A stretch of DNA of 64,000 nt from Amycolatopsis cihanbeyliensis (GTDB lineage Bacteria > Actinomycetota > Actinomycetes > Mycobacteriales > Pseudonocardiaceae). The stretch spans positions 5,924,001 through 5,988,000 of the forward strand of contig NZ_VFML01000001.1 in assembly GCF_006715045.1 (NCBI RefSeq). Reading direction: 5' to 3'. This document shows, piece after piece, positions 57,424 to 59,906 of this stretch. Position 1 is the first letter of the stretch. Every line of letters begins with the position of its first letter. The notes under the pieces were generated by a model that had not been told where the DNA came from, did no database searches, and saw nothing but the letters and a program-made list of their open reading frames with translations. The position numbers and the translations under genes are program-made.

Positions 57424-58425
57424 ATGAAGAAGATCATCAACGATCCGGCGGCGGTGGTCGCCGAATCGCTCGCCGGTCTCGCCGTTGCCCACGCCGACCT
57501 GTTACGGGTACAGCAGGATCCGGCTGTCGTGGTGCGGGCGGATGCCCCGGTGAACGGGCGGGTGGCGGTGGTGTCCGGTGGCGGCTCCGGGCACGAGCCC
57601 CTGCACGGCGGGTTCGTGGGGCCGGGCATGCTGCATGCCGCCGTACCCGGCCCGGTGTTCACCTCGCCGACTCCGGACGCCGTGCAGGCCGCGATCTCCG
57701 CGACCACCGGCGCCGCCGGTGCCCTGCTCCTGGTGAAGAACTACACCGGGGACGTGCTCAACTTCGAGACCGCGGCCGAGCTCGCCGCGGCCGAGGACCT
57801 CGACGTGCGCAGCGTGGTGATCGACGACGACGTCGCGGTGGCGGACTCCACCTTCACCGCGGGCAGGCGGGGAGTCGGCGGCACCGTGCTACTGGAGAAG
57901 ATCGTCGGCGCCGCGGCCGAGCGGGGTGACTCGCTCGATACGGTGGAGGCACTGGCGCGCAGGGTGGTCGGTCAGGCGCGCTCGATCGGGGTCGCACTCA
58001 CCGCGCCGGTGGTGCCGCACGTCGGCACGCCCAGTTTCGAGCTCGGGGAGAACGAGATCGAGTTCGGGATCGGGATCCACGGCGAACCCGGCCGGGAACG
58101 CATCCAGGCCGAGCCCGCGGACGCACTGGTGGACCGGATGCTGCGCGCGGTGCTGGAGGACCTGCCGTTCCAGCGCGGCGACGAGGTGTTGCTGTTCACC
58201 AACTCGATGGGCGGCACCCCGCCGATGGAGCTGTACCTCGCGCACGGCATTGCCGAGCGGCTGCTCGGGGAACAGGGGATCGTGGTGCGGCGCAGGCTGA
58301 TCGGTCCCTACATCACCAGCCTCGAGATGCAGGGGATCAGCCTTACCCTGCTGAAGCTGGACGACGAGCTGACCGAGCTGTGGGACGCGCCGGTGCGCAC
58401 GGCGGCCCTGCGCTGGGGGGTTTGA
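57424..58425 (+). CDS. dhaK: Dihydroxyacetone kinase subunit DhaK
   Basis: Binds dihydroxyacetone covalently through a His and presents it for phosphorylation. 333 residues: [19 protein letters not shown] (substrate site), [10 protein letters not shown], and the hemiaminal-forming H219 in [13 protein letters not shown] with GGAGG upstream. dhaL starts 2 nt after the stop. Confidence 0.95.
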
Positions 58426-58427
58426 CG

Positions 58428-59057
58428 ATGGGGTGCACCGCAAGCGATGTGGCCAGGGCACTACGCGCCGTCTCCGAAGTGGTCGCCGAGCATCGGGACG
58501 AACTGGTCGAACTGGACCGGGTGATCGGGGACGCCGACCACGGAGAGAACCTGCAACGCGGGTTCTCCGCGGTGGTGTCCACCCTGGACACGGCGGTTCC
58601 GGAGACGCCGGGCGCCGTGTTGAAGGTCGCCGCGACCACCCTCATCTCCAAGGTCGGCGGCGCCGCGGGGCCGTTGTACGGCACGGGCTTCCTGCGCGCC
58701 GCGACGACGCTCGCCGATCGGTCCGAACTGGACCCCGCGGGGGTGGCGGGCGCCCTGCGCGCCGGCCTCGAAGGGGTGCGGGCACGCGGCAAGGCCGAGC
58801 AGGGCGACGCCACCATGGTGGACGCGCTCATCCCGGCGGTGGAGGCCGCCGAGCGGGCGGCCGAAGCGGGTGACGGGATCGCCGAGGTGCTGTCCGCGGC
58901 CGCGGACGCCGCGGACAAGGGTGCCGAATCCACGGTGCCGCTGGTGGCGCGCAAGGGCCGTGCCTCCTACCTGGGAGAGCGCAGCGTGGGCCACCTCGAC
59001 CCCGGCGCCCGGTCCACCGCGCTGCTGCTGCGGGCACTGGCGGGGGCCGCCCGATGA
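58428..59057 (+). CDS. dhaL: Dihydroxyacetone kinase ADP-binding subunit DhaL
   Basis: Carries ADP as a bound coenzyme that is rephosphorylated by DhaM and phosphorylates DHA on DhaK. 209 residues with the metal/ADP site GDADHGENLQRGF, KVGGAAGPLYGTGF and GDATMVDAL. Its TGA overlaps an ATG (ATGA, 59054-59057) that opens the tandem mini-ORF repeats before dhaM. Confidence 0.94.
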   Translation: MGCTASDVARALRAVSEVVAEHRDELVELDRVIGDADHGENLQRGFSAVVSTLDTAVPETPGAVLKVAATTLISKVGGAAGPLYGTGFLRAATTLADRSELDPAGVAGALRAGLEGVRARGKAEQGDATMVDALIPAVEAAERAAEAGDGIAEVLSAAADAADKGAESTVPLVARKGRASYLGERSVGHLDPGARSTALLLRALAGAAR

Positions 59058-59065
59058 GCCGAGGT

Positions 59066-59149
59066 ATGAGTTCCGAGGGCGACGCCGAGCGAGCATCGCA
59101 GGTCCGGCCTGCGGGCCGAGGAGCGCAGCGAGAAGGAGCTGAGGTATGA
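59066..59149 (+). repeat. Mini-ORF repeat, copy 2 (27 codons, after dhaL)
   Basis: Same 80-bp unit as at 32689 and 59146. ATG 59066 opens 27 codons; an in-frame ATG at 59054 overlaps the dhaL stop and would add four residues. The TGA (59147-59149) overlaps the ATG of copy 3 as ATGA. AAGGAG lies just upstream of that ATG. Confidence 0.85.
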
Positions 59150-59229
59150 GTTCCGAGGGCGACGCCGAGCGAGCATCGCAGGTCCGGCCTGCGGGCCGAG
59201 GAGCGCAGCGAGAAGGAGCCGAGAAATGA
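59146..59229 (+). repeat. Mini-ORF repeat, copy 3 (27 codons, before dhaM)
   Basis: Tandem with copy 2 at exact 80-bp spacing and nearly identical. Its TGA (59227-59229) overlaps the dhaM ATG (59226), and its AAGGAG is the only ribosome-binding site for dhaM. The two short palindromes CGCAGG-TCCGG-CCTGCG and CGGCC-TGCG-GGCCG overlap and are mutually exclusive in RNA. Confidence 0.85.
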
Positions 59230-59906
59230 GCGTCGGCTTGGTGCTTGTCGCGCACAGCGCGAGACTGGCCGAGGGGCTCGCCGAGCTCGCCGGGCAGATG
59301 GCGCCGGACGTCACCGTGCTGCCGGCGGGCGGCTTGCCAGGGGGCGGCCTCGGCACGGACTACGACTCGGTGGTCGCCGCGGTGCAGCGGGCCGACTCCG
59401 GCGCGGGTGTCGTGCTGCTCTACGACCTCGGCAGTGCGCAGATGACCGCCGAACTCGCGGTGGAATCGCTGCCGGAGGAGGGCACGGCCGTGGTCGCCGA
59501 CGCACCCTTCGTCGAGGGCACGGTGGCCGCGGCGGTCGCCGCGCAGGGTGGTGCGGATCGTGACCGGGTACTGGAAGCCGCGGCCGCGGCCGGCGCGCCC
59601 GCCGATCTCGGCCCGGCCCCGGCCGAGCCGGACGACCGGGAAACCCGCCAGGTGGAGCTGACCCTGCGCAACGAGGTGGGGTTGCACGCCCGCCCGGCGG
59701 CGCTGCTGGCGCGGGGCGTTGCCGATCTGGACGCGCAGGTTCGGGTCCGGGCGGGCGGCGAGGAGGTGGACGCGCACAGCGTGCTCGCCCTGATGTCGCT
59801 CGGCGCCCGGCAGGGCGATCGGATCGAGGTACTCGCCGCCGGGCGGCAGGCACAGGAGGCGCTGGACCGCATCAGCTCCCTGGTGGAACGCGACTTCGAC
59901 GAATGA
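59226..59906 (+). CDS. dhaM: DhaM: PTS EIIA-mannose-like domain fused to HPr
   Basis: Phosphoryl donor of the PEP-dependent dihydroxyacetone kinase. 226 residues: EIIA-Man-like domain (about 1-120) with phosphorylated H10 in LVLVAHSARLAEG; Ala/Pro linker (about 120-138); HPr domain (about 140-226) with H154 in EVGLHARPAALLARG. No enzyme I domain is fused, so a separate EI is needed. Translation probably depends on the upstream mini-ORF repeat. Confidence 0.93.
   Translation: MSVGLVLVAHSARLAEGLAELAGQMAPDVTVLPAGGLPGGGLGTDYDSVVAAVQRADSGAGVVLLYDLGSAQMTAELAVESLPEEGTAVVADAPFVEGTVAAAVAAQGGADRDRVLEAAAAAGAPADLGPAPAEPDDRETRQVELTLRNEVGLHARPAALLARGVADLDAQVRVRAGGEEVDAHSVLALMSLGARQGDRIEVLAAGRQAQEALDRISSLVERDFDE

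Follow-up and report, generated by a model that had tools for sequence, protein, structure and literature searches.

A tandem pair of short, probably mobile MIRU-type repeats between dhaL and dhaM in Amycolatopsis cihanbeyliensis

The window analysed here, a stretch of 64,000 nucleotides from Amycolatopsis cihanbeyliensis, carries dhaK (57424..58425), dhaL (58428..59057) and dhaM (59226..59906) on the plus strand, and Pfam backs these names with a Dak1 domain in the first, a Dak2 domain in the second and EIIA-man plus HPr in the third, which encodes 226 amino acids. Between the dhaL stop TGA (59055-59057) and dhaM lies a single tandem array, placed by TRF at 59056-59230 with a period of 80, 2.2 copies and 95% matches, which contains two plus-strand repeat units of 80 bp (59066..59145 and 59146..59225). 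An earlier reading made from the letters of the DNA (hereafter the sequence-only reading) had described the region as a chain of ATGA overlaps leading from dhaL through two mini-ORFs to dhaM, and the chain was borne out: open frames at 59054-59149 (31 amino acids), 59146-59229 (27 amino acids) and 59226-59906 are joined by ATGA at 59054, 59146 and 59226, the last of these being the dhaM start. The AAGGAG that it had seen placed for each next start is likewise there, at 59133..59138 and 59213..59218, each 7 nt 5′ of an ATG, that of unit 2 and that of dhaM, respectively. The mini-ORFs had been taken as equal, with 27 codons each, which holds for the second; the first has 31 codons counted from 59054 and 27 counted from 59066, because a 12-nt leftover, ATGAGCCGAGGT (59054..59065), stands 5′ of unit 1. 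This leftover reads as a copy of the target, ATGAGC, that overlaps the end of a repeat unit (GAGCCGAGGT), which suggests that a third unit has probably been deleted and has left it as a scar; two other loci of the family, L018 and L003, have comparable leftovers of the 3′ end. A Pfam scan of the first mini-ORF gave no match. Elsewhere in the window, the core search and the profile found a second locus of the family, L014 (32689..32773, plus strand), a single unit ending at the GTGA with which the next long frame starts. With up to three mismatches allowed, the window contains three copies of the 46-nt core, compared with an expectation of 0.00 from 100 shuffles.

A BLAST search with the array in its own genome (7.4 Mb in two contigs) returned at least 47 matches up to E 10, of which many are weak, with 40 of 106 candidates scored; 35 units above 40 bits were taken, and 20 array loci with one to four full units of about 80 bp were examined. 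Where do these arrays sit? All 20 are followed within 70 nt, on the same strand, by the start of a frame 60 or more codons long, and this start is the array's own last ATGA or GTGA in 14 of them; a truncated extra unit stands between array and start at L002 and L022, and the fit is looser at L006, L013, L017 and L021. At or near the left end, an ATGA or GTGA terminates an upstream frame of 80 codons or more in 18 of the 20, the two without it being L014 and L025; the 'genes' in such counts are long open frames rather than annotations, and GC-rich DNA has many such frames. For scale, DTGA occupies 0.7% of window positions per strand. When the loci matched at E <= 1e-4 were screened for DTGA at both ends backed by open frames, 64 of 91 passed and 27 failed (in the own genome, L002, L013, L014, L017 and L025 among others); this set, like that of the 107-unit frame count given below, still includes L078, L079, L082 and L083, which together with L027-L030 and L260-L262 were left out of the evidence as weak matches with the appearance of chance hits or remnants. 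Alignment of 22 units showed that AGGAG in columns 69-73, a Shine-Dalgarno-like stretch before the 3′ NTGA, is invariant or nearly so.

Empty counterparts of the occupied sites are found in relatives. A search with dhaM matched 45 of 60 relatives, and 30 loci, the own locus and 29 others, were fetched. The dhaL/dhaM junctions of these relatives, which the sequence-only reading had proposed to compare, consist of a bare GTGA in 27 of 29 and of a bare ATGA in one (L048), each preceded by a frame of 209 codons or more. The remaining one, L034 of genome G011, has a different array at the same junction, in which three different 38-bp units (MTADxIxTAEAAK or VTAD...) are chained by NTGA; their common part resembles the end of dhaL, and 38, being 3x13-1, is also of the form 3n-1. 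The joined flanks of 14 own loci were also searched in three relatives. In G013, whose dhaM is the most similar to the own one (89% identity), a match runs straight across the joined flanks at 12 of the 14, while L007 and L012 are occupied; all 12 empty sites have a coupled NTGA within 25 nt, and in 10 it is exactly at the junction. Over the 32 fetched sites of the three relatives, a coupled NTGA lies within 25 nt in 30 and exactly at the junction in 24, and both sites lacking one belong to G011, one of them being the dhaL/dhaM site with the other array. Some G013 sites are not pristine: those of L020 and L003 have bases like the 3′ end of the element, and at those of L015 and L018 some bases are additional or displaced. 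At three G013 loci (L320, L321 and L322) the downstream frame opens with bases like the 5′ end of the element (e.g., ATGAACCGCGCAGGCGACG), as if a remnant of the element or a long duplication had turned into the N-terminus of a protein.

The ends of the copies carry a trace that may reflect insertion. Bases 5-9 agree between the left and right ends more often than in shuffles among the 64 clean-ended loci. For 40 loci judged by eye to be non-orthologous, with shuffling done within groups, positions 5-9 match at 119 of 200 bases against 92 after shuffling, a value reached in 0 of 5000 shuffles. Taken singly, position 5 matches in 29 of 40 (22 shuffled; fraction as high, 0.0014), position 6 in 29 (25; 0.013), position 7 in 20 (12; 0.0014) and position 8 in 18 (13; 0.044); in the same within-group shuffles neither position 9 (23 against 21) nor position 1 (23 against 24) is above chance on its own. 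The D of the right-hand DTGA is A in 37 of the 40 loci and that of the left-hand one in 24. The excess of agreement between the two ends in the bases after TGA suggests that a target of about 7 bp was duplicated. The element would thus enter a DTGA junction right after its D, duplicate roughly TGA plus 4 nt and itself supply the A on the right side of the junction; the signal is a statistical one with no single fixed length. ATGAGC at both outer ends of the dhaL/dhaM array, which had earlier been taken as a sign of a duplicated junction, agrees with this general matching of left and right ends in the family.

Such an insertion could keep the coupling layout intact, as the sequence-only reading had proposed, and the family agrees with this both in the bare coupled NTGA of 28 of 29 relatives and in its own frames: DTGA is found near the two ends in 71 of the 107 distinct units, and 66 of the 71 combine an open frame with 3n-1 spacing. 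Among single-unit loci the spacing between the end NTGAs is 3n-1 in 49 of 54, with periods of 80 (26 loci), 83 (12), 77 (8), 86 (2) and 74 (1), and the unit is also open in 47; five break the rule, with periods of 81, 79 and 87 (2, 2 and 1 loci), and seven are not open. The binomial value for 3n-1, 1.8e-18, overstates the case because the copies share ancestry, orthologous and tandem ones not being independent. Copies lying at random with respect to start and stop codons, or closed frames, were looked for as evidence against the coupling idea, and it was not refuted.

Is the encoded peptide what has been kept? The core GAGCATCGCAGG is read as ERASQ in the own genome, as EHRR in L066 and as SIAG in L063, and each of these frames is open as far as the last NTGA. 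Since one core is read in three frames across lineages, the DNA and its openness have been kept rather than the peptide; a conserved peptide is thereby ruled out, and the functional Arg-rich peptide once suggested for the mini-ORFs becomes unlikely. Stop trinucleotides number 50 on the sense strand of 99 distinct bodies (85 expected after shuffling) and 4 on the antisense strand, and since they are even rarer there, base composition must do part of the work. From the layout we infer that the mini-ORF carries ribosomes on rather than making a specific peptide. A ribosome ending dhaL would restart on each mini-ORF in turn and be delivered to dhaM, so that the insertion would be tolerated.

A role as RNA hairpins had also been envisaged, and it fared unevenly: a lone unit folds no better than its shuffles (z -0.43), but a 6-bp stem-loop, at 59101..59117 in unit 1 (59101-59106 pairing with 59112-59117; shifted by +80 in unit 2), covaries across the family. 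This stem is 86% paired over 24 sequences (no more than 54% in slid positions), and four of its pairs have changed on both sides; the support is favoured by the choice of the stem from those same 24 sequences. RNAalifold gives a longer stem (-3.38 kcal/mol), and Rfam gave no match up to E 1. With this null result and no excess folding, an RNA element is ruled out as the explanation, the 6-bp stem being the sole supported structure.

How far does the family extend? At E <= 0.01 the profile matches 37 times in the own genome, which has a further weak profile match at C1:4705300-4705365, and nine times in G013; in the rest of the genus, 12 of 16 genomes have no match and four have one weak match each. 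Family-wide, the tight model finds matches at E <= 0.001 in at least 24 of 297 genomes, with a few probable chance hits among them, and order-wide at least 84 of 397 genomes, in 23 of 85 genera and eight families (f1, f2, f4, f8, f9, f12, f13 and f16, of which at most one can be that of Mycobacterium), match a broader model at E <= 1e-4, the own genome being counted in both; no more than 15 or 11 candidates were scored in each genome under strict filters, and therefore weak copies may be missed. Copy number varies between orthologous sites: L007 has two units and its G013 orthologue L263 one, L002 has three full units and a truncated one against one in the G013 orthologue L272, and a single junction in genus g48 has one or two units across five genomes. 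Tandem copies would thus grow and shrink by recombination.

At least 118 stretches with MIRUs (mycobacterial interspersed repetitive units) were fetched with a query taken to be the MIRU core. A 2025 review, citing Supply et al. (1997), describes MIRUs as apparently mobile, inserting at start codons and carrying an ORF coupled at -4 nt, which is likely to limit their effect on genes (PMC12548453); the sequence-only reading, which knew of no described element with this design, was therefore wrong on novelty. Other sources give a size of 46-101 bp and 41 loci in M. tuberculosis H37Rv (PMC3914561), forms of 77 and 53 bp, both 3n-1, at senX3-regX3 (PMC4213456), and use in typing tuberculosis strains, with the function still listed as not well understood (PMC2734929). 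The query core was found in many more mycobacteria than is allowed by PMC4213456, where MIRU is said to be restricted to the M. tuberculosis complex plus M. leprae: the 80 named stretches listed are mostly from Mycobacterium, with two from Mycolicibacterium, one from Mycolicibacter and three from unnamed actinobacterial records. One of the stretches, L165, would on our own reading carry a single MIRU unit just 5′ of a regX3-like start.

Like the dhaL/dhaM family, MIRUs are short interspersed repeats, some in tandem with variable copy number, with 3n-1 spacing, NTGA ends and end matching. Among the matches listed, DTGA is at both ends in 84 of 118 MIRU clusters, and these 84 have a frame of at least 50 codons downstream in 73 cases and upstream in 52; of the single units listed, 48 of 65 are 3n-1 and 46 are also open, with a period of 53 in 45. 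Bases 5-7 agree at both ends in the MIRU matches listed, the shuffles here not being within groups. Two MIRU copies at non-DTGA sites, L167 and L197, still have flanks that are alike (CATGGC; GATTACCCG), hinting that target duplication may be independent of DTGA. The DTGA ends, open 3n-1 units and end matching mean that MIRU and the dhaL/dhaM family work alike. The 20 own arrays are scattered, multi-locus repeats within the size range of MIRU, their units appear from the layout to have an ORF coupled to its neighbours by NTGA at -4 nt, and orthologous sites that are occupied in one genome and empty in another, as 12 of the 14 are in G013, argue for mobility. Unlike MIRU, however, the family has a different body sequence and length (80 bp against 53/77), with likeness confined to the 3′ part with the Shine-Dalgarno sequence and ATGA, and position 1 matches at MIRU ends (0.70 against 0.57 in the matches listed) but not in the dhaL/dhaM family. 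When the element model R2 was run on 38 of the at least 118 MIRU loci, the best match had 13.6 bits (E 0.019), and 14 of 25 matches fell on MIRU, which covers 0.5% of the bases (both strands); conversely, the best match of a MIRU profile on element loci had E 1.2, with 6 of 16 matches on elements. A search for the MIRU core at up to two mismatches found no copy in the own genome, in G013, in four f8 genomes or in one f16 genome, against 14 and 8 in two Mycobacterium records. Homology in sequence is thus only hinted at, and the shared Shine-Dalgarno/ATGA end could be convergent. In the literature searched, no relevant description of the dhaL/dhaM family or of MIRU-like elements outside mycobacteria was found. 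At the level of anatomy and evolution, the family is distinct from MIRU in sequence and MIRU-type in kind, with the hand-over of ribosomes to dhaM a step that we infer. The observation of the sequence-only reading is therefore confirmed, and its interpretation, which missed MIRU, is supported in part.

We give a probability of about 0.85 to the reading that dhaL and dhaM are separated by two tandem copies of a mobile repeat, MIRU-type and non-autonomous, which would survive by preserving -4 translational coupling. Could the array instead be a purely local product, the native dhaL/dhaM junction having been duplicated in tandem without any mobile element? Something of the kind seems to occur at this very junction, as the 38-bp units of G011 resemble the end of dhaL, and local duplication may be true of that array; but the 80-bp unit is present at 20 examined places in its own genome and at other junctions in other genera, and the own-genome search (40 of 106 candidates scored) gave no match to the unit inside dhaL. 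The dispersed copies and the empty sites therefore lead us to reject duplication alone for the dhaL/dhaM array, where it is highly improbable. A palindromic repeat of the REP/BIME type, moved by a RAYT (Y1) transposase, would also be short and dispersed and have a covarying stem-loop. The family differs from such repeats in its sense orientation at coupled start and stop codons and its in-frame ORF, and the Y1 domain PF01797, the one family tested for a mobilising enzyme, was found in 0 of 23 genomes searched, element-rich ones included, against 5 of 14 controls, so that no such enzyme was found. The element ends, moreover, carry matched target bases, which Y1 enzymes are not known to produce; this origin is very unlikely. 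With MITEs the family shares small size, non-autonomy and an apparent target duplication, but it is tied to the reading frame, and inspection by eye revealed no clear terminal inverted repeat.

It is also conceivable that a benefit to the host keeps the element, its copy number tuning downstream output, a promoter being carried or the peptide acting. The variation in copy number between orthologous loci would suit this, as would the reports that the senX3-regX3 MIRU region of M. tuberculosis drives senX3-independent regX3 expression (PMC4213456) and that, of the 24 MIRU loci used for typing, 17 fall within or overlap 5′ UTRs of M. bovis (PMC4128351). Yet the element is patchy even within its genus, 12 of 14 sites are empty in the closest relative, the peptide frame changes between lineages and dhaL-dhaM pairs have been kept without the element in 28 of 29 fetched relatives, all of which makes a benefit of this sort improbable.

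Read as a MIRU-type mobile repeat, the dhaL/dhaM element provides a second, sequence-distinct family and hence a comparative handle on repeat insertion and operon tolerance, one that rests on the empty sites, the frame rule, the probable target duplication and the use of the core in three frames. DTGA coupling junctions are suggested to be safe harbours for 3n-1 insertions, with which the 38-bp array of G011 agrees. A wider proposal, which we hold tentatively and at somewhat below even odds, is that a class of non-autonomous repeats occurs across several families of the order, with MIRU as a branch or a close parallel; its members would duplicate about TGA plus 4 nt at DTGA pairs and be moved by an unknown transposase, and their ORF would be selected only for handing ribosomes on, hence the three-frame core.

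Two further groups of loci were noticed in the searches. A related element lies, in several genera, at the 3′ end of what is apparently one orthologous gene, ending IIAK(A/V)TGE, whose stop is inside the element (L100, L101, L107, L108, L119, L124 and L259); this insertion is apparently old and vertically kept. A more distant version (CGACGACTGTCGAGCATCGACCG and similar), in some cases tandem and with the left DTGA absent, is found at L075, L077, L080, L117, L125 and L126.
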